This document shows positions 2,781-14,022 of a stretch of DNA of 25,848 nucleotides, one piece after another (positions within the stretch are counted from its first letter, which is position 1; every line of letters begins with the position of its first letter). Made by a program: the position numbers and the translations under genes. The notes beneath the pieces were generated by a model. That model searched no databases, was not told where the DNA came from, and saw only the letters and a program-made list of their open reading frames with translations. Location: positions 1 to 25,848 of IMG/VR virus record IMGVR_UViG_3300036466_000516; one strand, given 5' to 3'. The stretch is from a virus.

Positions 2781-2862
2781 TAGGGCGGGAGGGCGGTGAA
2801 TATAATACCCTTCGGGGGAATAAACCCGCCTGCCTCGTGACAGGTTCTGAACCTCCCGCCAC
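2781..2862 (+). ncRNA. C4-type antisense RNA (P1/P7 c4-like) upstream of the BRO antirepressor
   Basis: The core is closed by a perfect 9-bp inverted repeat, GGCGGGAGG (2784-2792) with CCTCCCGCC (2852-2860). Inside are a CCC-TTCG-GGG hairpin (2808-2817) preceded by AATATAATA, an AATAAACCCGCCTG stretch, and a hairpin CCTG (2829-2832 region)/CAGG (2841-2844) followed by TTCTGAACC. This order and wording match what I recall of the C4 antisense RNA motif, which in phages P1 and P7 blocks synthesis of the Ant antirepressor by pairing upstream of it. The position, about 60 bases before an antirepressor gene, is the expected one. The exact ends are not determined, because C4 is usually processed from a longer transcript. 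A covariance-model search was not possible here. Confidence 0.72.
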
Positions 2863-2903
2863 CAGTGCGGTCGTCAGAAGCCCATCGGTGGTGTTGTGTA
2901 ACG

Positions 2904-2922: not shown

Positions 2923-3663
2923 ATGACCGCGAGTTCATTGCCGGATTGCGTCCGGTTTCACGATACAGAATTATCAATTATTGACCGTGATGGTCGGCCT
3001 TGGGTGACGAGCGCCGATTTGGCGCGGGCGCTTGGCTATGCCAATGCTAACAAGGTAACGGTTCTTTATAATCGCCTAAAAGACGAGTTTTCCGACGATA
3101 TGACCCTCTTACTCAAATTGAGTACGAGGGGGCAGGTCGCGCCAACCAACCACCGGGTATTCTCTCCGCGCGGGTGTAGAACAATAGCGTTTTTTGCCCG
3201 CACCGCCCGCGCCAAGGCATTTCGCCGCTGGGTGCTCGATGTGCTGGAAGGGCTGGAAAAGCCCGCGCCAGCCCCGCACCCCGATGCGGTAAGCAGCTTT
3301 CATTTTTCCAATGATCAGATTGCGGCCTTGCGGGCCGATATAGTGCGTGATGTGACACGGGATTTGGCGGCAAGGATGCCGTCGCCGGGGGTGGATATGC
3401 CGCGCCTGAATGCGGGCCATGCCCTGTTTGCCATCGCAGGCAAGCGGGTGATTGTTGATACCCGTGATGGCAATCCGGCGCGGGGCGACCGGGCGGTTGT
3501 GGTGCGCTGCGAGGGCGGGGGCCGTGGCCCCGAACTGGTCACGATCCTTGGCGATCCGCCGGTGCCGACATGGTTTGACCGCTGCAAGATTTATGATTCA
3601 GGCGTGCGTTATCACATTCCGGTCGGGGTGGTGATTGGCCGTGTTATTTGGGAGGGTGTGTGA
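2923..3663 (+). CDS. BRO-N domain antirepressor
   Basis: A 246-residue protein. The N-terminal BRO-N domain (about 8-110) reads VRFHDTELSIIDRDGRPWVT, SADLARALGYANANKVTVLY, then FSPRGCRTIAFFARTARAKAFRRWVLDVLEG. BRO-N proteins in phages act as DNA-binding antirepressors or regulators. The middle (about 115-160) looks like a linker. The C-terminal ~85 residues are unusual: beta-rich, with NPARGDRAVVVRCEGG and VGVVIGRVIWEGV, faintly like the C-terminal fold of S24/LexA-type repressors, though I see no clear Ser-Lys dyad. The start is the ATG at 2923 with GAGGG seven bases upstream, in the site targeted by the C4 RNA. Its stop overlaps the next start (TGATG), so it also leads the replication operon. 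Confidence 0.85.
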   Translation: MTASSLPDCVRFHDTELSIIDRDGRPWVTSADLARALGYANANKVTVLYNRLKDEFSDDMTLLLKLSTRGQVAPTNHRVFSPRGCRTIAFFARTARAKAFRRWVLDVLEGLEKPAPAPHPDAVSSFHFSNDQIAALRADIVRDVTRDLAARMPSPGVDMPRLNAGHALFAIAGKRVIVDTRDGNPARGDRAVVVRCEGGGRGPELVTILGDPPVPTWFDRCKIYDSGVRYHIPVGVVIGRVIWEGV

Positions 3664-3917
3664 TGACCGAGGAGCAGATTGCGGTTTTGACGGTGCTGGA
3701 TGCCGTTGAGAGCGAATTTATTGAGCATTCGTGCATCAAGGCCGAACGCATTGGTATGGAAAAAGGCCGGTTTTTGGCAGTTTGTCGCAAGTTGCGCGAT
3801 ATGGGCTATGCGGAATTACTACCGCTGTTTGACCTTGGGGATGGTGCGGTATGCGGCAGCGCCTATGCCCGCACCAGAAAGGGCGAAACATTGGTGTTTT
3901 TGGCGGGTGCCGCATGA
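3663..3917 (+). CDS. Small unknown protein at the head of the replication operon
   Basis: An 84-residue protein starting at the ATG at 3663, overlapping the upstream TGA, with GGGAGGG at 3650-3656. It is largely helical with a possible winged-helix feel: MTEEQIAVLTVLDAVESEFI, then ERIGMEKGRFLAVCRKLRDMGYAELLP, then ARTRKGETLVFLAG. This resembles a small MarR-like or primase-accessory wing domain, but I cannot name a family. It ends in ATGA, coupling it to the primase gene, so a role in replication control is possible. Inferred from position only. Confidence 0.7.
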   Translation: MTEEQIAVLTVLDAVESEFIEHSCIKAERIGMEKGRFLAVCRKLRDMGYAELLPLFDLGDGAVCGSAYARTRKGETLVFLAGAA

Positions 3918-5080
3918 CGGACATTAAACGTTCATTGGCTGATATGGCGGATGCTATCAAGGGGCAATACCGGCCCAGCGAGGTTGTGGGGCAGTTTGTG
4001 AAGCTGCGCCGGGCCGGGGTGGAAATGGAAGGGCTTTGCCCGTTTCACGGCGAGAAATCGCCCAGTTTCAAGGTGAATGATCGCAAGGGGGTTATTCATT
4101 GTTTTGGCTGTGGCTGGCATGGTGACGTGATTGCGTTTTATGCCGAAATACGCGGGATAGGTGCCAGCGAGGCGATACGCGCCCTGGCGTCGGATGCGGG
4201 CATTGATGACCCGGTGGCCCGCGAGCGGCTGGCGCAAAAGGCGCGGCGTGATGCCGCCCGGCGTGAGGCCGACCTTGCGGCGCAAAAGCAAACCGAGGCG
4301 GGCCGGTTAATGGCGATTTGGCAAAGCCGGTTGCCGGTTTTGGGGTCGCCTGTGGCGGATTACCTGGCGTCGCGCAAGGTGTTGCCCGATGTGGTGCCGC
4401 CGACATTGGGCTATTTGCCAGACCACCCGTATTGGAACCGGCCCGACAAGGGGCGCAGGGCGGTTTTATGCGGGCGGTTCCCCGTCATGGTGGCGATTAT
4501 GTTAATGCCCGACCGGCGCTTTGCCGGGTTGCATATGACCTATATCGCGCCCGACGGCAGCGGCAAGGCGCAACCGGTTTGCCCGGTGACGGGCGAGGTT
4601 TTGGGGGCGAAAAAGGTGCGGTCGGCCTTGCCGGACCTTTCGGGGGCCGGGATATGGTTAACGCCGATCCGGGCGCATATGGCGGTTTCAGAGGGGATTG
4701 AAAACGGTTTGACATGGATGCTGCGCCGTCCGGATTGGGGCATTGCAGCGGCCTATAGCCTTGATAATCTGGCCGGGGCCGGGCTGGGTGAGGGGCGCAA
4801 ACGCAGCGATGACCCGAAAAAACGCTTGCCCAGCAAGGCCCCGCGCATGGCCCGGCCCGGTTTTCGTCCGCCTTATGGGGATGATGAATATTCGCGCTGG
4901 AAAACCGTGCAGCATGTGCAGCGGGTGACGGTACTGGCCGATAATGACAGCAAGGACCCGATTGCGGCTGCGTGCCTGTTTGAACGGGCGCGGCGAAAAT
5001 TTCAGAATATTGGCTATGAAAGCCGGGTGTTAATGCCCCCGGCGGGAATGGATTTTAACGATATGGTCCGGGGGAAGTGA
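3914..5080 (+). CDS. DNA primase with CHC2 zinc finger and TOPRIM domain
   Basis: A 388-residue primase-like protein expected to make RNA primers for phage DNA replication. The CHC2 zinc-binding domain has C42, H45, C63 and C66 (CPFH and CFGC), with the usual LCPFHGEKSPSF and GCGWHGDVIAFY context. A charged Ala/Arg-rich linker (about 97-135) leads to a TOPRIM-like domain with AVSEGIENGLTW near 256-267 and VTVLADNDSKD near 338-348, the acidic metal-binding motifs. The ATG at 3914 overlaps the previous stop, and the stop overlaps the helicase start. It is shorter than cellular DnaG and lacks an obvious DnaB-binding domain, as in phage and plasmid primases of the Toprim_3 type. Confidence 0.9.
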   Translation: MTDIKRSLADMADAIKGQYRPSEVVGQFVKLRRAGVEMEGLCPFHGEKSPSFKVNDRKGVIHCFGCGWHGDVIAFYAEIRGIGASEAIRALASDAGIDDPVARERLAQKARRDAARREADLAAQKQTEAGRLMAIWQSRLPVLGSPVADYLASRKVLPDVVPPTLGYLPDHPYWNRPDKGRRAVLCGRFPVMVAIMLMPDRRFAGLHMTYIAPDGSGKAQPVCPVTGEVLGAKKVRSALPDLSGAGIWLTPIRAHMAVSEGIENGLTWMLRRPDWGIAAAYSLDNLAGAGLGEGRKRSDDPKKRLPSKAPRMARPGFRPPYGDDEYSRWKTVQHVQRVTVLADNDSKDPIAAACLFERARRKFQNIGYESRVLMPPAGMDFNDMVRGK

Positions 5081-6846
5081 TGGCAGTGGAATATCAGCAA
5101 GCGGCCAACGAGAATGTTGATTTTGACCGGATCGACGAAGATAACCCGTTTCAGGATGCGGCAGACGGGGCCACGGCCCTGCCAGATGCCGGACCGTGCC
5201 CGGTGCAGTGCCTGGGGCATAATGATGGCCGGTTTTATTTTGTAACGCCCAGCGGCCAGTTGCGCGACCTTGCGGCCAAAAGCCTTGGCAACCGGCAGGA
5301 AATTACCGCGCTTTTTGAAACCAAACTTGGCTGGGCCGGGGCGGCTTTTCCCAAATATGACAAGGAAGAACGTTATGTTGGGCCAAATTACCCGATGGTG
5401 GGACAATGGTTTATGGGGGAATGTGCGATAAAGGGCATATTCTCGCCCGACAAGGTGCGCGGGCTTGGCGTTTGGAAGGATATTCGCGGCGGGCTGATTG
5501 TGCATTGTGGCGACCGGCTGGTTTTATCGTCTGGCCATAAGGTGGAAAAGGCGGGGCGCAAGCTGGATGACGGGTGGGTTTACCCGGCACAGCCGCCTTT
5601 GCCCGCGATGATGCGCCCGGCCCTGAATGACCCGGCGCGGATTGGCGATATGCGGATGGTGTATGACCATTTGAAATCGTGGAATTTTCTGTCGCCTGCT
5701 GGGGCGCATATCTGCCTTGGGATTATGGGCTTGATTTGTATTTGCGGGGCCTTGCAGCGGCGGCCTACGCTTTGGCTGATCGGCGATGCCGGGGTTGGCA
5801 AAACCGAGTTGTTAACGTTGTTAACAGAGCCGGTGGGCGGGCTGGACAACACGTTGCGGTCGTCTGATGCCAGTGCGGCCTTTGTGCGCGCCGCATTGCA
5901 GGGGGCGGCAAGGCCGGTGTTTCTGGATGAAATGGAACCGGGGCCACGGGCCGCTGCGGCGATGGAACTGGCCCGGCTGGGATTTTCAAATGATCAGGCC
6001 GGGGTAGGGCGCGCCAGTGCTGATCAGAAAGCGATATTGCAGCGGATTACCGCGCAGTTTGTGTTTGGCAGTATTTTGCACCCTGAACCAAAACCACAGG
6101 ACCAGTCGCGCATTCATTTTATGGAACTGGGGCCGCTTAGTGCCGATGCGGCAGCGGTTGAAACCTTTAACACCCGCGCCCGCATGATTAAGGAAATCGG
6201 CCCGAAAATTTGGGCGCGGATGATTTTGGGGTATCCGCGTTTTTTGGAAAATCTGTTGGTTTATCAGGGTGTTTTGGGGGCTTCGGCCTATTCGCGCCGG
6301 TTAACCGACAAGTTTGCGCCGGTGTTGGCGGCGGCGGAAACGTTGTTGGATGACGTTGTGATCAATGCCGGTACGGCAGCGGACCAGATTAGCGTTTGGG
6401 GCCTTGAAGAACCCGAACAGAACGATACCGAGGCCGACGAATGCCTTAACCATCTTATGTCCTGTCAGGTGGATACCTGGCGCGGCGGGGACCGGTTAAC
6501 GGTGGGGCAGTTGCTTACCAAGGTATTGGACCTTGGTGCGCGGGGTGACGGGGATTCGGCACGGCTGAATGAGGAAACCTTGCCGGGGTATGGCCTTAAA
6601 CTTGGCCCTGCCAACCGGGGCACACAGCGCGGGTTTGAATATTTGATGGTGGCCAACAAGCACCAGTCCTTAACCCGGCTGTTTCGTGAAACGCGCTGGC
6701 AAGGCGGGGTTCATCGGCAGGCATTGGCGCGTTTGGAGGGGGCTGTTGCCGCCGGGCCATTGCGGTTAGGCGGGGCGCTTACCCGGTGCATTAAAATCCC
6801 GCTTGCCATTATTGCCAAACCCGATAACAATGGTGATGTCCTATGA
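5080..6846 (+). CDS. Phage replication helicase-like P-loop ATPase
   Basis: A 588-residue ATPase immediately downstream of the primase and coupled to it (TGATG). A GTG at 5077 is a possible earlier start. Walker A is GDAGVGKTE at about 234-242 and Walker B is PVFLDEME at about 279-286. An Asn/Gln-rich segment (FVFGSILHPEPKPQDQSRI) follows, perhaps sensor 1. The N-terminal ~200 residues, with WFMGECAIKGIF and GLIVHCGDRLVL, look like an unidentified substrate- or DNA-binding domain. The architecture suits the D5/SF3-like or VirE-like helicases that phages pair with CHC2 primases. The exact superfamily is uncertain. It probably loads at the GTTAC-box origin just downstream. Confidence 0.8.
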   Translation: MAVEYQQAANENVDFDRIDEDNPFQDAADGATALPDAGPCPVQCLGHNDGRFYFVTPSGQLRDLAAKSLGNRQEITALFETKLGWAGAAFPKYDKEERYVGPNYPMVGQWFMGECAIKGIFSPDKVRGLGVWKDIRGGLIVHCGDRLVLSSGHKVEKAGRKLDDGWVYPAQPPLPAMMRPALNDPARIGDMRMVYDHLKSWNFLSPAGAHICLGIMGLICICGALQRRPTLWLIGDAGVGKTELLTLLTEPVGGLDNTLRSSDASAAFVRAALQGAARPVFLDEMEPGPRAAAAMELARLGFSNDQAGVGRASADQKAILQRITAQFVFGSILHPEPKPQDQSRIHFMELGPLSADAAAVETFNTRARMIKEIGPKIWARMILGYPRFLENLLVYQGVLGASAYSRRLTDKFAPVLAAAETLLDDVVINAGTAADQISVWGLEEPEQNDTEADECLNHLMSCQVDTWRGGDRLTVGQLLTKVLDLGARGDGDSARLNEETLPGYGLKLGPANRGTQRGFEYLMVANKHQSLTRLFRETRWQGGVHRQALARLEGAVAAGPLRLGGALTRCIKIPLAIIAKPDNNGDVL

Positions 6847-7187
6847 CCTATACCACCCCCGCACCCCGTGATTTAAAGGGTGCTTCGCAGATTTTGAAGC
6901 GGGTTCCGGTGTGGGTTTTGCGGCAGATGTTACAGCCCGGAATGGCGTTTGTAACACCCGCGTTACGGATAACCCCTTATAAAATAACCATTGTTACAAT
7001 GTTACGCCTGTTACAGGAAAACATCCCCCCATGTGTGCGCGTGCGCGCATATGTATATAAACTATGTAACAACTGTAACATTGTAACTTTATATATAAAT
7101 CAATCAGTTAAACGTTACGCAGGTGTTACACTTGCAAAATGGGGTGTAACAGCTGGTTTTGGTCAGTCCGTACGTGGAGGGTTTTGA
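6843..7187 (+). CDS. Unknown 114-residue ORF that contains the candidate origin
   Basis: The ATG at 6843 overlaps the helicase stop (ATGA) and the TGA at 7185-7187 ends one base before the next start, so it fits the operon tightly. The first ~40 residues (TTPAPRDLKGASQILKRVPV, then WVLRQMLQPG) look like normal coding sequence. From about residue 35 the composition becomes Thr/Val/Cys-rich because the DNA is the GTTAC repeat array. I recognise no domain. Either a short protein whose gene hosts the origin (as lambda ori lies in gene O), or a frame kept open by chance across a non-coding origin. Confidence 0.42.
   Translation: MTYTTPAPRDLKGASQILKRVPVWVLRQMLQPGMAFVTPALRITPYKITIVTMLRLLQENIPPCVRVRAYVYKLCNNCNIVTLYINQSVKRYAGVTLAKWGVTAGFGQSVRGGF
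6929..7150. repeat. Candidate phage replication origin: symmetric array of twelve GTTAC boxes
   Basis: GTTAC occurs at 6929, 6962, 6993, 7001, 7010, 7114 and 7125, and its complement GTAAC at 6951, 7066, 7075, 7083 and 7146. Pairs 6951/7125, 6962/7114, 6993/7083, 7001/7075 and 7010/7066 share exactly the same midpoint, 7040. The outermost pair (6929/7146) is off by half a base. Inner triplets have spacings of 8 and 9 bases, mirrored on the other side. AT-rich gaps of 26 bases (6967-6992 and 7088-7113) separate inner and outer boxes. The array sits directly after primase and helicase genes, as expected for an iteron-type origin. An operator cluster is the alternative. Confidence 0.72.
7030..7059. 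other. 30-nt alternating purine-pyrimidine tract at the centre of the array
   Basis: Bases 7030-7059 alternate pyrimidine and purine without a break. The first part is GC-rich (TGTGCGCGTGCGCGC) and the second AT-rich (ATATGTATATA). Such tracts can adopt Z-DNA under negative supercoiling and melt easily at the AT end. It covers the symmetry centre of the GTTAC array, so a role in origin opening or spacing is plausible. Inference only. Confidence 0.6.
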
Positions 7188-7188
7188 C

Positions 7189-7773
7189 ATGGGCAAACGT
7201 GGCGTGATGGATGTGTGGGCGGCGTTGCAATGGGTGGTACAGGACCAAAAAGCGGACATGGCCTATAACGATGGCAACCTGTTGGGCTATGGCGAACAGC
7301 CGGGGAGTATTACGCGGCGGGTGATGAACATGGCGCAATATGGTGCTGTTATTGGCGGTTCTGATGGATCGATGCCTGATCTTGACCCGGATGCAGAAAT
7401 TATCTGGATTGGTGTTGAGTGCCTGTTTGAGGCGTGGCGTACCGGGGCGCTTGTCGGTGAGGTTGGTCTTAACGTGCCGGTGCAGATGCAACGCTGCCTT
7501 AAGAAATGGCGGCGCAATCCTGTGGCTGAAATGGTTCTGTCGGCGCGGTCGGGCGTGATGCCGGACTGGATGCCGGGTGGTTGGCAGAACGATTCGGGTC
7601 TGACACGACGGGAAGTAGAGGAATGCAGGCTGAATTACATCATGGTCTGGGATATGTTGGCGGCGTTGTGCATGAGGTTGCAGGGCTCTCACAGGCTGGG
7701 CATTGTTGTCGAAATGCCCGGTATTCCGCGCCTTCCATGGCATGGCCGGAAAAAAGTTCAACAAGCCAGTTGA
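7189..7773 (+). CDS. Unknown protein in the late-regulator position
   Basis: A 194-residue protein. The ATG at 7189 has GGAGG (7176-7180) eight bases upstream, one of the better ribosome-binding sites in the early operon. It is Trp- and Met-rich (MDVWAALQWVVQDQKADMAY, AEIIWIGVECLFEAWRTGAL, LNYIMVWDMLAALCMRLQG) and ends in a basic tail (RLPWHGRKKVQQAS). I do not recognise a domain. It is the last gene before a promoter and stacked terminators that lead into the late genes, the place held by Q-type antiterminators or other late activators in lambdoid phages. That role is inferred from position only. Confidence 0.75.
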   Translation: MGKRGVMDVWAALQWVVQDQKADMAYNDGNLLGYGEQPGSITRRVMNMAQYGAVIGGSDGSMPDLDPDAEIIWIGVECLFEAWRTGALVGEVGLNVPVQMQRCLKKWRRNPVAEMVLSARSGVMPDWMPGGWQNDSGLTRREVEECRLNYIMVWDMLAALCMRLQGSHRLGIVVEMPGIPRLPWHGRKKVQQAS

Positions 7774-7798
7774 CAAAATTCGGGCTTTCGGCGTAAAC
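7770..7798 (+). promoter_or_regulatory. Candidate late promoter
   Basis: A perfect TTGACA (7770-7775) overlaps the stop of the preceding gene. With a 17-18 base spacer the -10 would be GTAAAC or TAAACG near 7793-7799, which is weak. Transcription would start near 7805, just ahead of the terminator at 7822. A strong -35 with a poor -10 could suit an activated promoter. Confidence 0.4.
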
Positions 7799-7821
7799 GG
7801 AAAGAGTATTCCTAATATCTG

Positions 7822-7855
7822 CGCCCGCTGGAGAAATCCGGCGGGCGTTTTCTTT
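7822..7855 (+). terminator. Strong intrinsic terminator after the replication operon
   Basis: CGCCCGCTGGA (7822-7832) pairs with TCCGGCGGGCG (7837-7847) over 11 base pairs with one G-U, closed by a GAAA tetraloop and followed by TTTTCTTTT. A textbook rho-independent terminator, only about 20 bases beyond the expected start from the candidate late promoter. Confidence 0.88.
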
Positions 7856-7875
7856 TGCCTCCTCGTTGAGCCTGC

Positions 7876-7909
7876 AAGGCCCGGCCATTGTGCCGGGCCT
7901 TGGCTTTTT
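7876..7909 (+). terminator. Second hairpin terminator in tandem
   Basis: AAGGCCCGGC (7876-7885) and GCCGGGCCTT (7892-7901) form a perfect 10-bp stem over a six-base loop, followed after GGC by five T. It lies 20 bases after the first terminator. The three-base gap before the T-run weakens it slightly. Confidence 0.65.
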
Positions 7910-7931
7910 CGGGGTGACGGGATGTGTCGTT

Positions 7932-8300
7932 ATGCCAGCGTTGCCACGGAAGCCTTGCGCTCTTGCCCGATGCGGGCGGTTAACCGAGCCGGGGCAACGA
8001 TACTGTGCCGCGCACAAGACGGAGCAACGTGCAAGGCAGGATAAGGCTCGGGGTACTGCGGCAAGTCGTGGTTATGGCTACAAATGGCAACAAGCCAGCA
8101 AGGGGTTTCTTAAGCGGCATCCGGTGTGTTGTCGGTGTGAGACTTCGGGGTATGTGGTTGGGGCAACGGTCGTGGATCACATCAAGCCGCACCGAGGTGA
8201 CAAGGGTCTGTTTTGGGATCGGTCCAACTGGCAACCGCTGTGCAAGCCCTGCCATGACCGCAAGACGGCGGTCGAGGATGGTGGTTTCGGTGGATTTTAG
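7932..8300 (+). CDS. HNH homing-type endonuclease (packaging-associated)
   Basis: A 122-residue HNH nuclease. An N-terminal zinc knuckle (CALARC, then RYCAAH) leads to a basic helix (RGYGYKWQQASKGFLKRHP). The HNH core has CCRC, VVDHIKPHRGD with the catalytic His, RSNWQPLCKPCHDRKT with the Asn and last His, and CxxC pairs for a structural zinc. Such genes beside terminases assist TerL in cutting DNA at cos during packaging (shown for HK97-like phages). Here it lies just before TerS/TerL, supporting a cos mechanism. The frame extends upstream to 7866, but that would cover the second terminator, so the ATG at 7932 is preferred. Confidence 0.88.
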   Translation: MPALPRKPCALARCGRLTEPGQRYCAAHKTEQRARQDKARGTAASRGYGYKWQQASKGFLKRHPVCCRCETSGYVVGATVVDHIKPHRGDKGLFWDRSNWQPLCKPCHDRKTAVEDGGFGGF

Positions 8301-8503
8301 CCATAAAATGGCAGTTTTCCTAGGGCTTCAGGCCTAAGGGGTGGGGGTATCCTCAATCTCTATCGATTTACCACCCAAGACCGTCTTGGTGGTCACGGAT
8401 TTGTGGGGCGGAAATTGAATAGGAAAAACCCACTTGGAAAACCCTTTGGAAAGTCAGTTGGTCAAGCCGATTGATGTAAGTTGAGGGACCTGTGGGCGCG
8501 AGC
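8301..8503. other. Non-coding stretch before the terminase genes; possible cos/terminase region
   Basis: No gene is apparent. ACCACC(C)AAGAC and GTCTTGGTGGT (8370-8393) form a near-perfect palindrome around one C, with a single extra C. Phages with an HNH-TerS-TerL block often have cos just upstream of terS, so this segment is the best place in the window for it. I see no cos sequence I can recognise. Confidence 0.35.
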
Positions 8504-8535
8504 GGGCCGGGGATTATTCCCCGGCCCTTTGTTTT
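8504..8535 (+). terminator. Intrinsic terminator immediately upstream of the small terminase gene
   Basis: GGGCCGGGG (8504-8512), loop ATTATT and CCCCGGCCC (8519-8527) form a perfect 9-bp GC stem followed by TTTGTTTT. Late transcription starting upstream must pass it to reach terS. Confidence 0.85.
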
Positions 8536-8559
8536 GGCCGCTTTGTTTGGGTGGTGGGT

Positions 8560-9045
8560 ATGGCACGCGGACGTAAACCTGATGTGAGCAACGTTATTCC
8601 GTTGACCGTCGACGGTCGCGACGTTGGCCCCGCTGCGCGGATGGAAGATGCCCGGGCATCGGCGGCGGAATTAAAACCTGACGGCATGGGCGAAGGTGCT
8701 GCAAAGGTCTGGGACCAGGTGGCCCCTGTGCTGGCTGAAAAAAACCGGCTCGACGCATTGTTTGTGTGGGCCGTTGCCGAATTGTGCGAGTGCCTGGCAC
8801 GGATGGAAGCGCACCGGGCCAAGTTCACGATGGATGACGAAACCTATGCGGTTGAAGGGCGAAATGGCGCGCAGCTTAAGACCCGGCCCGAGGTTGCGCA
8901 GTTTAATGAAACGCGGCGCACGGCATTGCGGTTGTTTGCTGAATTTGGCATGACGCCAAGCGCGTCTCGTTCGCTTGCGGCGGCTGTTGGTCAGGGTGAT
9001 TTGTTCGATGACTTTGACGATTTCAGGGAAAGCCGGGGGACGTAA
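8560..9045 (+). CDS. Terminase small subunit, P27 family
   Basis: A 161-residue TerS that recognises phage DNA and presents it to TerL. It begins MARGRKPDVSN, the basic start usual in the P27 family. It continues with GMGEGAAKVWDQVAPVLAEK, then LFVWAVAELCECLARMEAHR, then RTALRLFAEFGMTPSASRS near the C-terminus, ending in an acidic tail (DLFDDFDDFRES). The ATG at 8560 follows a GGTGGTGGG stretch. An in-frame GTG at 8551 is less likely. The end overlaps the TerL start by 38 bases, in line with coupled expression. Length matches the family. Confidence 0.88.
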   Translation: MARGRKPDVSNVIPLTVDGRDVGPAARMEDARASAAELKPDGMGEGAAKVWDQVAPVLAEKNRLDALFVWAVAELCECLARMEAHRAKFTMDDETYAVEGRNGAQLKTRPEVAQFNETRRTALRLFAEFGMTPSASRSLAAAVGQGDLFDDFDDFRESRGT

Positions 9046-10810
9046 ACGACGCCGCAATATCAAGCGGGCCGAACTGGTGCGCCGGTTCAAGGGCAACCCG
9101 GCGGTGCTTTATCATGTCAGCACATGGTATGCTCTATCCGTTATCGAGGGCAAAATACCCGCCTGCAAGCTGCGCATTGCAGCCTGCCAGCGCCAGATCA
9201 ATGATCTGATTGATGGGCCAAAGCGCGGGCTGATGTTTTCGATGCCCCGCGCCGACCATGTGATGGCATTTTTCCCGCTGTTTTTGCGCCATTCCAAGGG
9301 GGAATGGGGCAACCACCGGTTCGAGTTGTCGGATTGGCAAAAGTTTTGCCTGTCGGTTCTGTTTGGCTGGCTGGTGGCGGAAACCGGGCTGCGCCGGTTT
9401 ATTTATGCCTATTTCGAGGTGCCGCGCAAAAACGGAAAATCAACATTCCTGTCGGGTGTTGGCCTGTACATGTTTGTGATGGATCAGGAGCCGGGTGCCG
9501 AGGTTTACACCGCCGCAACCAAGTCGGAACAGGCGAAAATCATCTTTTCTGAAGCGCAGAATATGGTGCGCAAAAGCCCGAAACTGCGCAAACACATCAT
9601 GTCGATGTCGCGGCATTTGGAACATCCGCGTTCGGCGTCGATTTTCAAATATATTTCGGCAGATGCCAAAACGCAGGACGGGTTAAACAGCCATTGCAAC
9701 CTGGTTGACGAGGTTCATGCGCACAAGGATCGCAGCCTGATCGAAGTGCTGGAAACCGGCATGGGGGCGCGGCGTCAACCTTTGCACATCGAAATCACCA
9801 CAGCGGGAACTGACCCCTATTCGGTGTGTCGGGAACATCATGATTATTCAGTCAAGGTGATGACCGGTGTTTTTGATGACGACACGTGGTTTGGATTTAT
9901 CTGTTCGGTCGATAAGGGCGATGATCCGTTTGCTGAATTAAGCTGGCGCAAGGCCAACCCGAACTGGGGTGTGTCGGTGCGCGCCGATAACTTTGAAAAG
10001 ATCGTGGCCAAGGCGCGAAATAATCCGGCATCGCTGGCATCGTTCAAGCGGTTGCGCCTGAATGTTTGGGGGCAAACGTCGGAAATCTGGCTGGATATTT
10101 CCCAGTGGGATAAATGCCAGATCGTATTTGACCGCGAAAGCCTGCGCGGCAAGCGGTGCTATATCGGCATGGATATGTCGTCGGTTAGCGATATTACGGC
10201 GGTTGTGTTGGTGTTTCCGCCCGAATTTGAGGGTGAGAAAACACGGATATTGCCGTTTTTCTGGGTGCCCGAGGCGACGATTGAAAAGCGGGTGGAAGAT
10301 CGCGCCGTTCCCTATGACCAATGGGAAGAAATGGGGCTTATTCGCCGTACCGAGGGCGGTGCAACGGATTATGATGCGATTGAAACCTTTATTCTGGGCG
10401 ACGATGACGCAGGGATTGAAGGGCTGCGGGATGAATTTGAGATTGTCGAAATCGCCTATGACCGGATGTTTGCCGGGCAGATTATTCAGCACCTTGAAAC
10501 ACAGGGTTTGACCTGTGTTTCGATGGGGCAAGGCATGTATGGCATGGCGGCCCCCTGCCGGGAACTGGAACAGTTGGTGATTAATGGGAAAATTGCCCAT
10601 GACGGCAACCCGGTGATGACCTGGATGATTTCAAATACTGCGGTCAAAACCGACGATCACGACAACAAAAAACCGATCAAGCCCGATAGCCGCAAGGATA
10701 TGCGCAAAATCGACGGTGTGGTTGCCATGTTGATGGCGCTGGGCCGGATTATTTCAGCCGAGTCCGATGAAGAAGTATCGGCGGAATCAATATTTGGTGG
10801 TGTTATATGA
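9008..10810 (+). CDS. Terminase large subunit (HK97-like packaging ATPase/nuclease)
   Basis: A 600-residue motor that pumps DNA into the prohead and cuts it. The ATPase domain has a Walker A-like motif, VPRKNGKST at about 138-146, AAATKSEQAKIIFSEAQ-type sequence after it, and Walker B NLVDEVHAH at about 231-239 with the catalytic Glu. The nuclease domain has YIGMDMSSVSD with its first metal-binding Asp near 389, VEIAYDRM near 481-488, and a final KIDGVVAMLMALGRI near 568. I chose the ATG at 9008; an upstream in-frame start would add basic residues not needed by the family. The stop overlaps the portal start (ATGA). It looks complete. Confidence 0.93.
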   Translation: MTLTISGKAGGRKRRRNIKRAELVRRFKGNPAVLYHVSTWYALSVIEGKIPACKLRIAACQRQINDLIDGPKRGLMFSMPRADHVMAFFPLFLRHSKGEWGNHRFELSDWQKFCLSVLFGWLVAETGLRRFIYAYFEVPRKNGKSTFLSGVGLYMFVMDQEPGAEVYTAATKSEQAKIIFSEAQNMVRKSPKLRKHIMSMSRHLEHPRSASIFKYISADAKTQDGLNSHCNLVDEVHAHKDRSLIEVLETGMGARRQPLHIEITTAGTDPYSVCREHHDYSVKVMTGVFDDDTWFGFICSVDKGDDPFAELSWRKANPNWGVSVRADNFEKIVAKARNNPASLASFKRLRLNVWGQTSEIWLDISQWDKCQIVFDRESLRGKRCYIGMDMSSVSDITAVVLVFPPEFEGEKTRILPFFWVPEATIEKRVEDRAVPYDQWEEMGLIRRTEGGATDYDAIETFILGDDDAGIEGLRDEFEIVEIAYDRMFAGQIIQHLETQGLTCVSMGQGMYGMAAPCRELEQLVINGKIAHDGNPVMTWMISNTAVKTDDHDNKKPIKPDSRKDMRKIDGVVAMLMALGRIISAESDEEVSAESIFGGVI

Positions 10811-12066
10811 AACTGCAAAAATTGACCGGCTGGATGAAACGCAGTTCTGCCAGTGATCGCGAAATTAACGCGCTGCGCTGGCAGAACTGGCCGACAATCA
10901 GCCTGGGCGGCCTCGCTGGTGATGGCCCGCCAATCAGCCATCACACGGTATATTCGTGCATTAACGTGATTGCCGAGGGCTGCGCGATGCTGCCGTTTTT
11001 GCTGTATCGGCGGCAAAATGACAGCCGGGTTATCGCGCTTGACCACCCGCTGCATGATATTTTGCAATTCAGCCCGAACCCGCACATGACGGCATTTCAG
11101 TATTTTCAATTGCTGATGTTTGAAAAGCTGAATTACGGCGATCACTTCGCCCTGAAAGTGTTTGATGATCGTGGGCGATTAAGGGAGTTGTACCCGATTG
11201 AATACAGCCGGGTGCTGCCATATTGGTACATGGAAAAGGAAACCGGGCTTCGCCGCCGTGCCTATCGCGTAAGCGGGTTTTCGGGGCTGCAATCGGTCTT
11301 TCTGGAAGATGAAATTTTTCATGTGCAATTCAAGCCGGTTTTGAGCGGAGATAATCACGGGCTGCGCGGGGCATCGGTTTGGCAGCAATACCAGCAAGGC
11401 ACCATCGATAGCGCCCTGACAGCGGAAAAGTTCGTTGCAGACGGGTTTCAGAACGGTGTGAATATGTCCGGCCATATCAGTGTGGACGCGCCGTTAAAGG
11501 CCGAGGAATCGGACAAGCTGCGTGAACAGATCAAAAAAAGTTATGGAGGACGCAACGGGGCAATTGGCGTTTTTGGCTATGGTGCGAAATTTTACGCGCA
11601 CAGCCAAACCAGCAAGGACGGGCAAATTCTGGAAACCCGGCAGTTTGACCGGTCAGTGATCGCCGGGATTTTGCGGGTTTCTGCTCATTTGATCAATGAT
11701 CTGTCGAAGGCCACGTTCTCGAATGTCGAACATCTTGACCTGGCCCATTTCAAACACTGCCTTTTGCCGCACCTGATCGATTTACGGCAAACCGCCCGCA
11801 AGGATTTGCTGGCAGAAAGCGAGCGTAGCGCGTTTGAGTTTGATCACGACGAGACGGTTTTGTTGCGTGGCGATCAGAAAAGTTTCGCCGAGGTGCTGGA
11901 AAAGGCCGTGCAAAACGCCCGTATGACGCCGAACGAGGCGCGCAAGGCCACCGGGTTGCCACCAAAGGAGGGCGGGGACCAATTGTTTATCAATAGTGCC
12001 AGCATCCCGCTGGACGTGGCAGCAAAGCAGACTGCGCCAAATCAGAAAGGGCCTGCAAGTGAATGA
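10807..12066 (+). CDS. HK97-family portal protein
   Basis: A 419-residue portal, the dodecameric ring at the head vertex through which DNA passes. Family features are HHTVYSCINVIAEGCAMLPF near the N-terminus, HPLHDILQFSPNPHMT, the FQYFQLLMFEKLNYGDHFAL helix, and a C-terminal RMTPNEARKATGLPPKEGGD, which is highly characteristic of the HK97 portal family. The start is the ATG overlapping the TerL stop. The C-terminus overlaps the protease start. Length is typical (400-430). Confidence 0.93.
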   Translation: MKLQKLTGWMKRSSASDREINALRWQNWPTISLGGLAGDGPPISHHTVYSCINVIAEGCAMLPFLLYRRQNDSRVIALDHPLHDILQFSPNPHMTAFQYFQLLMFEKLNYGDHFALKVFDDRGRLRELYPIEYSRVLPYWYMEKETGLRRRAYRVSGFSGLQSVFLEDEIFHVQFKPVLSGDNHGLRGASVWQQYQQGTIDSALTAEKFVADGFQNGVNMSGHISVDAPLKAEESDKLREQIKKSYGGRNGAIGVFGYGAKFYAHSQTSKDGQILETRQFDRSVIAGILRVSAHLINDLSKATFSNVEHLDLAHFKHCLLPHLIDLRQTARKDLLAESERSAFEFDHDETVLLRGDQKSFAEVLEKAVQNARMTPNEARKATGLPPKEGGDQLFINSASIPLDVAAKQTAPNQKGPASE

Positions 12067-12664
12067 ACCTGATTTGAAGGATGGGCCGACGCCCACCGAT
12101 TTTGAATTGCGCTTTACGCTGGCCTCTGAATTGCGGGCGGAAAGCGATGCTGCGCGCAAGGTAACGGGCTATGCCGCGCTGTTTGGTGTCAAAACGAAAA
12201 TACGTATGTGGGGCGGTTACAGCTTTGAGGAATGGCTTAATCGCGGCGCTTTTTCGTCCAGTCTGAAATCAGGCAGGGATGTTCGCTACTTGGCCGAGCA
12301 TCGTTACGATTTGCTGCTGTCGCGTGTTTCTGCCGGGACGTTGACCCTTTTGGAAGATGACAAGGGCCTTCGGTTTGATGCGGATTTGCCCGACACAACT
12401 GCGGGTCGAGATACTTATGAGCAAATCCGTAACGGCAATTACAGCGGCATGAGTTTCGGTTTCAAGACGGTTAAAAACCGCGCTGAATATGATGACCGTG
12501 GCCGTCTTGTCCGCATTCAGCACGATGAAGTTGACCTGGGCGAAATCTCGGTCACATCGATGCCAGCCTATCCTAAAACCAGCGTTGCAATCCGCTCGCT
12601 GGCAACCCGGCCCGCGCCGGATTTGCGGGCATTACGCCTGCGCGTTCTAAAACTGAAAGGTTAA
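12059..12664 (+). CDS. HK97-family prohead protease (peptidase U35/S78)
   Basis: A 201-residue serine protease that trims the capsid delta domain during head maturation. The catalytic His is H81 in the EHRYDLLLSR motif and the Ser is S132 in SGMSFGF. VTGYAALFG near the N-terminus and VTSMPAYPKTSVAIR near the C-terminus are family hallmarks. No clear ATG exists near the start. GTG at 12059 is preferred because AAAGG lies about eight bases upstream and the gene then overlaps the portal end by eight bases. It is followed five bases later by the capsid gene, the usual order. Confidence 0.9.
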   Translation: MNEPDLKDGPTPTDFELRFTLASELRAESDAARKVTGYAALFGVKTKIRMWGGYSFEEWLNRGAFSSSLKSGRDVRYLAEHRYDLLLSRVSAGTLTLLEDDKGLRFDADLPDTTAGRDTYEQIRNGNYSGMSFGFKTVKNRAEYDDRGRLVRIQHDEVDLGEISVTSMPAYPKTSVAIRSLATRPAPDLRALRLRVLKLKG

Positions 12665-12669
12665 CTCCC

Positions 12670-14022
12670 ATGACACTTAAGGAAATGCAGGCCCGGCGCG
12701 CCAAAATGGTCGCCGATATGGATAAACTCGTCTCTGGTGATGCCCTGACCGACGAACAGCGGTCGCAATTTGATGATCTGGAAAAGCAGATCGGCACCCT
12801 TGATTCTGATATCAAGCGCATGGAAACCATTGAAGCCCGGCGTTCGGAAGCGGCGGCACAGGTTCCTGCCGGTGGCAATTCCAATGACGACCCGGCAGCG
12901 GGTGGCACCCGGTCGCAAGACCCATTTGGCGGGCGTCCTGGTTTGGTTCCGGCGCAGCCTGCGCAACAGCGCAATGTGGCTGACGAATTTGGTATGTTCG
13001 TGCGCAGCTATGCGGCCGCGCAAGTCGAAATGAAGGAAGGGCGTTCGGCACAACCGTCGTTGATGGCAAAAAAACTGTATGGCGACGGACATCCTGTTGT
13101 CGGCAATCTGGAGCGCGCACAAACGCTTTCGGAAAATGGCGGCGGCGGTTTTACTGTTACTCCGACTTATATGCCTGAAATTATCAAACTGTTTGGCCCG
13201 CGTACCATTGTGCGACAGCGGTCGACAGTGGTGCCAGGTAATGCAACATACCTGAAAGGCAAAACCGGGGCTTCGGTCGGCTATGTTGGTGAAAACCAGC
13301 AAGGCGAGACCACTGGTGTCACCTGGGGTACGATGACGATGGCAGAAAAAGACATTGCTGCTATTTTGCCGATTTCCAAAAAGCTTTTGCGCCTTACCAG
13401 TTATGGTGTCGAAACCTATTGCCGGGATGAAATGGTGCGGGCGGCAGCGGAATTTGAAGATCGCAAGTTCCTGTATGGGGCGGGTGTTGGCATGGAAGTC
13501 AAGGGCTACGCCTATGCTATTCCGTCGGCGAACCAGGTGGATGTTGCGAATGAAACGGCGCCGACCAATGCGCAGGTTCGCACCGAACTGCGCAAGGCGT
13601 TGAAGGCGCTGGCGACCGCAGATGTGCCAATGAACGGGACCAACCCGGCATGGTTTATGTCGCCTTTGACCATGATGTATCTGCAAGACCTTTATCAGGG
13701 TGATGTGAAGGCATTTCCTGCGCTGGAAGGCCCCAGCCCGACCTTGATGGGTTATCCGGTTGATACCAGCACGCAAATCACCGGACCGGCTGGTGCTGGC
13801 GGGGATATTTTCTTTGGCTGTCATTCCTATGCGATGGTCGCAGACAGCGTGGCAATGCAGCTTTCGACCAGCGATCAGGCGTCCTATGTTGATAGTGGCG
13901 GTAACACGGTCAATATGTGGGCGCAAGACATGCTGGGCATCAAGCTGATGATGTCACATGATTTTGCGCTGCGTTATGATCAGGCGTTTTACCGTCTTAA
14001 GTCTGTTAAATGGGGTCAGTAA
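12670..14022 (+). CDS. HK97-family major capsid protein
   Basis: A 450-residue major head protein. Residues 1-60 form a charged coiled coil (MTLKEMQARRAKMVADMDKL, then SQFDDLEKQIGTLDSDIKRM), the delta/scaffold domain removed by the protease. A Gly/Pro/Gln-rich linker runs from about 65 to 105. The HK97 fold follows, with GGGFTVTPTYMPEIIKLFGP, RTIVRQRSTVVPG, the MTMAEKDIAAILPISKKLLR E-loop region, and a C-terminal SHDFALRYDQAFYRLKSVKW. A terminator-like hairpin follows directly, consistent with very high expression. Length is slightly above the 380-430 norm because of the long linker. Confidence 0.94.
   Translation: MTLKEMQARRAKMVADMDKLVSGDALTDEQRSQFDDLEKQIGTLDSDIKRMETIEARRSEAAAQVPAGGNSNDDPAAGGTRSQDPFGGRPGLVPAQPAQQRNVADEFGMFVRSYAAAQVEMKEGRSAQPSLMAKKLYGDGHPVVGNLERAQTLSENGGGGFTVTPTYMPEIIKLFGPRTIVRQRSTVVPGNATYLKGKTGASVGYVGENQQGETTGVTWGTMTMAEKDIAAILPISKKLLRLTSYGVETYCRDEMVRAAAEFEDRKFLYGAGVGMEVKGYAYAIPSANQVDVANETAPTNAQVRTELRKALKALATADVPMNGTNPAWFMSPLTMMYLQDLYQGDVKAFPALEGPSPTLMGYPVDTSTQITGPAGAGGDIFFGCHSYAMVADSVAMQLSTSDQASYVDSGGNTVNMWAQDMLGIKLMMSHDFALRYDQAFYRLKSVKWGQ

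Follow-up and report, generated by a model that had tools for sequence, protein, structure and literature searches.

The DNA analysed here (the window), 25,848 bases of an IMG/VR-type virus record, carries on the + strand a gene (7189..7773) for a 194-residue protein that, judging from sequence comparison and predicted structures, is likely to be a Q-like late-gene antiterminator, with the stretch between its stop codon and about 7910 as the cognate gate. The putative antiterminator, delimited from its open reading frame and homologs, is a divergent relative of phrog_9306 and most probably belongs to a Q-like late antiterminator family that is new in sequence. Many relatives keep a layout like that of coliphage 21, so the family is probably an unrecognised family of late-gene switch. 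Gene, TTGAC and terminator are linked across the homologs, the same cassette stands before a different packaging module in some loci, and the model of one relative resembles phage-21 Q (Q21).

Genome context

The phage host is probably a marine bacterium. Of named relatives, the closest is a Thalassospira sp. MCCC 1A01428 contig, which is 92.5% identical in DNA sequence to window positions 8504-13508 and encodes a protein 96% identical to the product of the 194-residue gene. Gene order in the window runs from replication genes through a 114-residue ORF (6843-7187), just before the 194-residue gene, to an HNH endonuclease, the small (TerS) and large (TerL) terminase subunits and the portal. The upstream replication genes encode a primase (3851-5080) and a protein matching phrog_21086 and a primase PHROG (5077-6846). 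The first gene past the gate is the HNH endonuclease (7932..8300, +, PF01844), whose start was set at ATG 7932 from the alignment of relatives, the longest-ORF start being TTG 7866. TerS (8560..9045, +, PF05119) and TerL (8975..10810, +, coordinates of the longest ORF) follow. Comparison of relatives also revealed a conserved non-coding block between the HNH gene and terS (about 8333..8450, +), with 77-79% nucleotide identity over approximately 8370-8449 in loci L009, L011, L020 and L034. This block is probably the cos region, a name that we presume from HNH-terminase phages.

Elsewhere in the window, two different anti-repressor (Ant-type) genes were recognised through PHROGs (956-1816 and 2923-3663, both +), and a toxin gene (phrog_3445) adjoins a transcriptional repressor gene (phrog_4268) on the minus strand (1952-2731); we take this pair to be HigBA-like. 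An Rfam match to RF02221 (sRNA-Xcc1) at 2784-2868 (+), scoring 65.5 bits vs a cut-off of 53, adjoins the toxin-antitoxin-like pair, and L034 shares 83% identity with the window over 2651-2928.

The 194-residue protein and its relatives

The gene starts at ATG 7189, where the alignments of its homologs begin as well. Searched alone, the window protein had no match in Pfam, PHROG (E ≤ 1) or NCBIfam, in agreement with its description as unrecognised in the first-pass annotation of this DNA. Within alignment A7 (24 members, window included), 22 members matched phrog_9306, which is annotated only as of unknown function. The same alignment compared with Pfam gave a best E of 0.06, no PDB sequence matched the family profile at E ≤ 10, and tblastn of GenBank phages returned no match, or best E values of 9 and 0.1.

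IMG/VR yielded close relatives of the protein, as did the bacterial family to which the Thalassospira genome belongs (5 of 29 genomes). Distant relatives, reached via phrog_9306 and an alignment of phrog_9306 members, occur in the same order (28 of 317 genomes) and in a class sample (8 of 385); phrog_9306 itself was detected in 9/385 class-sample genomes vs 0/14 control genomes. No paper was found under the name phrog_9306 among the matches listed for the open-licence literature, and publications on Q-like or late-gene antitermination, including those on alphaproteobacteria and on newer Q families, did not name the family, again among the open-licence matches listed.

Promoter-like site at the stop codon

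The hexamer TTGACA (7770..7775, +), read as the -35 of a predicted late promoter, lies right at the end of the 194-residue gene, as had been noted on first reading, and holds the stop codon within it: the gene ends in AGT TGA, with TGA at 7771-7773. The promoter proposed there held up in part, in that the -35 TTGAC is kept in homologs while a recognisable -10 is missing from the window. The candidates for a -10 read from the sequence, GTAAAC (spacing 17) and TAAACG (spacing 18), both within 7793..7799 (+), are weak, and the window gate has neither a second TTGACA box nor a good -10. A consensus promoter scan of 5000-11000 reported no site at 7770 and missed the candidate -10; its total of 4 promoter-like sites compares with 4.2 ± 2.1 in shuffles. 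On its two strands together, the window has 11 copies of TTGACA.

When redundancy was removed at 80%, 62 homologs were left, and 23 of them have a relaxed two-box pattern, most commonly as TTGACn-N13-TTGACA, with TTGAC as the first box in 20/23 and a gap of 13 in 20/23. Taken as a -35 that is separated by a 17-base spacer from a CANNNT-type -10 preceded by TTGA, the pattern would be an ordinary sigma70-type promoter. Of these 23 homologs, 14 end the -10 in T (p=6e-5) and 20 have a purine at the predicted +1 (p=2e-4), both columns having been noticed prior to testing; since the boxes were chosen by the pattern itself, only these two columns count as extra support. The spacer shows some preference for A. 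Other members of the clade to which the window belongs (L012, L031-L034 and L020) have TATTGA in the place of the -10, unlike the window. The -10 of the window clade thus departs from the two-box form, and the promoter of the window is predicted from its relatives.

Terminators and predicted leader RNA

Terminator 1 (7821..7855, +), a tR'-like element, consists of a hairpin at 7821-7848 (-25.0 kcal/mol; 12 pairs, 9 of them G-C) with a 4-base GAAA loop, followed by a T-rich tail. It is the very strong GAAA-loop terminator of the first-pass annotation and recurs, at -22 to -26 kcal/mol, in every one of the 14 window-clade loci examined, which are partly dependent, as L012/L014 and L009-L011 are close copies. 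Across the clade it begins 31-50 bases into the post-stop region. Terminator 2 (7875..7910, +; hairpin 7875-7902 and T tail) reaches -20 kcal/mol or better in 9 of the 14 loci and -11.7 to -15.5 kcal/mol in the other five. This second hairpin, the HNH gene and terS were all found in the order and at the positions first reported. Terminator 3 (8504..8535, +; hairpin 8504-8527), ahead of terS, is lineage-specific, having a counterpart among 11 loci only in the window and L004.

All three hairpins of the proposed stack therefore exist, and "three" overstated the gate: terminator 3 was rejected as a component, its sole counterpart besides the window being that of L004. This pattern of conservation indicates a gate proper made of the promoter, terminator 1 and, usually, terminator 2. 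Terminator-like sites in 5000-11000 number 7, vs 8.3 ± 3.1 in shuffles. With promoter and terminator counts both at chance level, the counts alone are no evidence, and the comparison with relatives is.

From the -35 spacing and hairpin 1, a terminated leader RNA of about 50 nt is predicted (7805..7855, +), with its start site deduced from the spacing; it would correspond to the leader of phage 21. That such a very short terminated transcript is expected would also suit a reading in which the transcript (about 7805-7853) acts as a regulatory RNA in its own right and has no relation to the adjoining gene. Rfam gave matches at the gate, all of them under their cut-offs; the one to RF01772 (Pseudomonas rnk leader; 7792-7910, +) spans both terminators with 37.1 bits vs a cut-off of 55. 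The two-box homologs (23) also keep little of the leader relative to the promoter boxes, which argues against a regulatory RNA, and we consider this reading highly improbable.

Conservation of the gate across homologs

The antitermination reading ties the gene to the promoter and terminator at its end, and this linkage was counted across homologs. A TTGAC was counted when it started between -25 and +80 of the stop codon, and a terminator when a hairpin of -12 kcal/mol or lower with a T-rich tail lay within 150 bases; the two were scored as in order when the hairpin started 20-85 bases past a TTGAC. The counts excluded homolog ORFs whose E exceeded 1e-10, near-duplicate sequences (about 90%; 80% for the two-box set) and L072, which lies near a contig end. 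Controls were other non-overlapping ORFs of at least 100 residues from the same loci, on either strand and taken longest first, some of which may not be genes.

TTGAC was found near the stop in 27/30 and 14/23 non-redundant homologs of the first and second set, respectively, vs 30/223 control gene ends, and started exactly one base ahead of the stop codon in 15/30 and 7/23 (11/223 in controls). A terminator lay within reach in 23/30 and 13/23 homologs vs 32/223 control ends. Both elements in order were present in 21 of the 30 and 11 of the 23 homologs vs 4/223 controls (Fisher, 6e-20 and 4e-10, respectively), the sequences of the second set having been viewed ahead of threshold setting. With a less refined hairpin finder, used before, the counts were 23/53 homologs vs 2/219 controls. 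In a third set of nine viral homologs, fetched later and scored with the same thresholds, seven had the TTGAC, six the terminator and four both in order (7e-5). These nine were hand-picked from 20 loci, leaving out loci already seen, copies (L113, L123-L125 and L128) and L111 at a contig end, and one of them, L118, closely resembles the second-set homolog L083.

By these thresholds the gate is missing in 12 of the 23 second-set homologs, which include L087 and L093, with a stop inside the match, and several with no downstream terminator; some of them may be decayed prophages. The scoring script kept only the strongest hairpin per locus, so the window (L001), whose second hairpin is the stronger, was not scored as having both in order.

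The same counts bear on whether the terminators just close the early operon, with the late promoter further down, the protein doing other things and the TTGAC incidental. The hairpins are not above chance by count, and terminators are common at boundaries between early and late modules, as early-operon closure would have it. TTGAC and terminator together are far commoner after the homologs than at other gene ends of the same loci, however, and they persist where the downstream module differs. The consensus scan, which has no + strand promoter-like site in 7770-11000, also speaks against a late promoter further down; this is a weak point, as the same scan misses the promoter proposed here. Taken with the evidence on both sides, early-operon closure is distinctly unlikely.

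One cassette before different late modules

HNH, TerS and TerL genes like those of the window follow the gene in 12 of 17 window-clade loci, copies included, and the remaining five are L031/L019, L033/L018 and L032. L031, L032 and L033 retain the gene, the TTGAC and terminator 1, and their downstream DNA has no match to the HNH, TerS or TerL of the window. They continue instead into a small helix-turn-helix-like ORF and then a longer one of about 670 codons, which in L033 encodes a large terminase of the GpA type (Pfam PF05876 and PF20454). L033 is 96% identical to the window over 3920-7248 and thereafter aligns only over 7519-7913, at 69%.

The comparison with L033 and L018 falls sharply at window position 7248, early in the 194-residue gene, from about 96% identity to no alignment. 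This drop is read as a recombination junction between early and late modules. As the exchange point is inside the start of the gene, most of the regulator, the promoter and the terminators differ together with the late module. Such joint change is expected of a regulator and its target, and plain physical linkage would give the same.

A different conserved non-coding block was observed downstream of the homolog in L033, L039, L068-L071, L073 and L074, with a variant in L038. It carries GGGTCCTTCC and repeated GGTTGAC- or GGTTAAA-like units, and is probably another type of cos. The helix-turn-helix-like ORFs found downstream in L033, L069 and L071 are perhaps small terminases.

Comparison with phage-21 Q

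In the phage 21 record the Q stop codon ends at 1132, the -35 TTGACA is at 1139-1144, the Q-binding element at 1147-1162, the -10 at 1162-1167, the start site at 1174 and the terminator at 1176-1223. As in the window, the Q gene of phage 21 (phrog_943) lies directly upstream of its promoter. TTGACA begins at the seventh base past the stop in phage 21, and the -35 of the window lies at the stop; the terminator ends 49 bases past the start site in phage 21 and about 50 past the predicted start in the window. The gate geometry of the two is nearly the same.

Q proteins are described, in passages of PMC9371919 and PMC6606751, as needing a binding element and a pause element. Phage-21 Q has a tandem binding repeat, whereas no tandem repeat like that Q-binding site is conserved across the window clade. 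Tandem octamers of the phage-21 kind in the window spacer (5/8 matches in the phage-21 register, 6 at best) were rejected, not being conserved in the clade. A -10-like pause sequence in the leaders, with at least 4 matches, was found in 3 of 23, vs 4.6 in shuffles, and hence with no excess; phage 21's own leader scored just 3/6 in the same test.

Structural models were made for the window protein (pLDDT 74) and for its relative in L071 (pLDDT 86). With the window model, Foldseek against the PDB gave nothing significant and VIA-align did not return Q21, which excludes nothing, since VIA-align takes only the candidates of Foldseek. Foldseek of the L071 model against the PDB also gave nothing significant, and Q21 was not listed at E ≤ 10. 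In VIA-align of the L071 model with 127 chains, the five best rows are all phage-21 Q (Z 5.6-6.6, rmsd 6.6-7.7): 6p1a_C (Z 6.6, rmsd 7.2, 113 aligned), 6p1b_A (6.5), 6p18_P (6.1), 6p19_Q (5.9) and 6jnx_P (5.6). They represent 5 of the 7 named Q21 entries; the sixth row is an unrelated protein with Z 2.8. The best alignment pairs model residues 1-167 with Q21 14-153. A Z under 8 indicates possibly a common arrangement, so with the large rmsd the match to Q21 would by itself be a hint. Since Q21 alone is prominent, and the family was chosen for its Q-like gate, we give the structural match more weight than a hint. Ahead of its last long helix the L071 model shows a beta-strand segment that members of the window clade do not have. 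Against BFVD, Foldseek of the L071 model found nothing at E ≤ 0.001 (best E 0.054); the second rank (probability 0.84, E 0.068) is nameless, and the third (probability 0.35) is called a transcriptional activator.

Sequence comparison did not reach Q21. Among the 24 A7 members, PF06530 and the Q-type PHROGs 943, 79, 753 and 14465 had no match at E ≤ 1. E. coli QuuD, which belongs to PF06530, is related in sequence to Q21 (E 7.6e-7). When ten aligned Q21/QuuD sequences served as the hhalign target, probabilities were 0.1-0.5% (E 0.11-0.67), and BLASTP against Q21/QuuD gave an E of 0.98. A shuffled-alignment test against Q21/QuuD was not significant, with 9 of 120 pairs at Z ≥ 2, the top values (Z 3.3 and 4.1) coming from L012 paired with two proteins of the Q21 type. 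As the profile test failed, the 194-residue protein is not filed under PF06530. An RREVxE stretch common to window residues 140-145 and Q21 127-132 was set aside as not significant. The known Q families, according to a passage of PMC9371919, are likewise without significant mutual sequence similarity.

The poor -10 of the window is of the kind seen at activator-dependent promoters, and the protein could on that account be a transcription activator that recruits polymerase to the weak -10, with the hairpins as ordinary attenuation overcome by strong initiation. GafY of a gene transfer agent, as presented in part of PMC11150451, is a precedent for such an activator. An activator should be needless, however, in the 23 of 62 homologs that have a good -35/-10 pair, terminator 1 is kept at a similar short distance in the clade, and the best structural rows of the L071 model are those of an antiterminator. 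Activation is thus unlikely, and we infer antitermination in its place.

Discussion

Conservation of the gate, the varied downstream modules and the Q21 rows of the L071 model all back the suggestion, made in the first-pass annotation, that the protein may be a new type of antiterminator. The Q-like layout proposed there is likewise borne out: gene, TTGAC and promoter-proximal terminator are linked in many divergent homologs, and the gate of phage 21 has a matching spacing.

In the antitermination mechanism, for which we infer promoter activity, loading, read-through and use of the weak -10 of the window, host RNA polymerase would initiate at the promoter whose -35 overlaps the stop codon of the gene. 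With the protein absent, polymerase would make about 50 nt and halt at terminator 1, with terminator 2 halting whatever leaks past. As it builds up from the early operon, the protein would load on polymerase at the promoter, like phage-21 Q, and the modified polymerase would pass both terminators into the HNH gene, terS, terL and the remaining late genes.

Comparable systems are known. AlpA of Pseudomonas aeruginosa (alpB promoter, terminator tB) loads at a promoter and lets polymerase through a nearby intrinsic terminator, according to a passage of PMC9371919; as is proposed here, one protein loads at the promoter and passes the terminator nearby. AlpA serves a host cell-death operon, whereas the window gate would serve a phage late operon, and the absence of PDB matches to the window family's profile applies in this context too. 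GafZ of the Caulobacter gene transfer agent is described in part of PMC11150451 as an antiterminator at the promoter of a phage-like cluster, with a binding element between the -35 and the -10. It provides an alphaproteobacterial precedent and is likened to the window protein by description. GafZ works with GafY and IHF, and its terminator lies past the first gene, not near +50.

On balance we think it probable that phrog_9306 and the window branch make up a family of Q-like antiterminators that is widespread in alphaproteobacterial phages and has so far lacked a name, with a fold and gate of the phage-21 type and no detectable sequence similarity to it, the -35 often lying over the stop codon of the regulator and the cassette moving between unrelated late modules. 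With the -35 often built over its stop, the regulator and its target would move as one cassette between such modules.

If this is true, a PHROG family of unknown function would acquire a function, and late-gene control would become predictable from sequence in many alphaproteobacterial prophages, through a promoter and terminator at the stop codon of the gene. The tight cassette of gene and gate before differing packaging modules would offer a direct test of regulator-target co-evolution. A wider spread of late control like that of phage 21 was anticipated in the AlpA study (PMC9371919), and the phage-21 mode would then reach past enterobacterial phages to phages in which the sequence similarity is gone.
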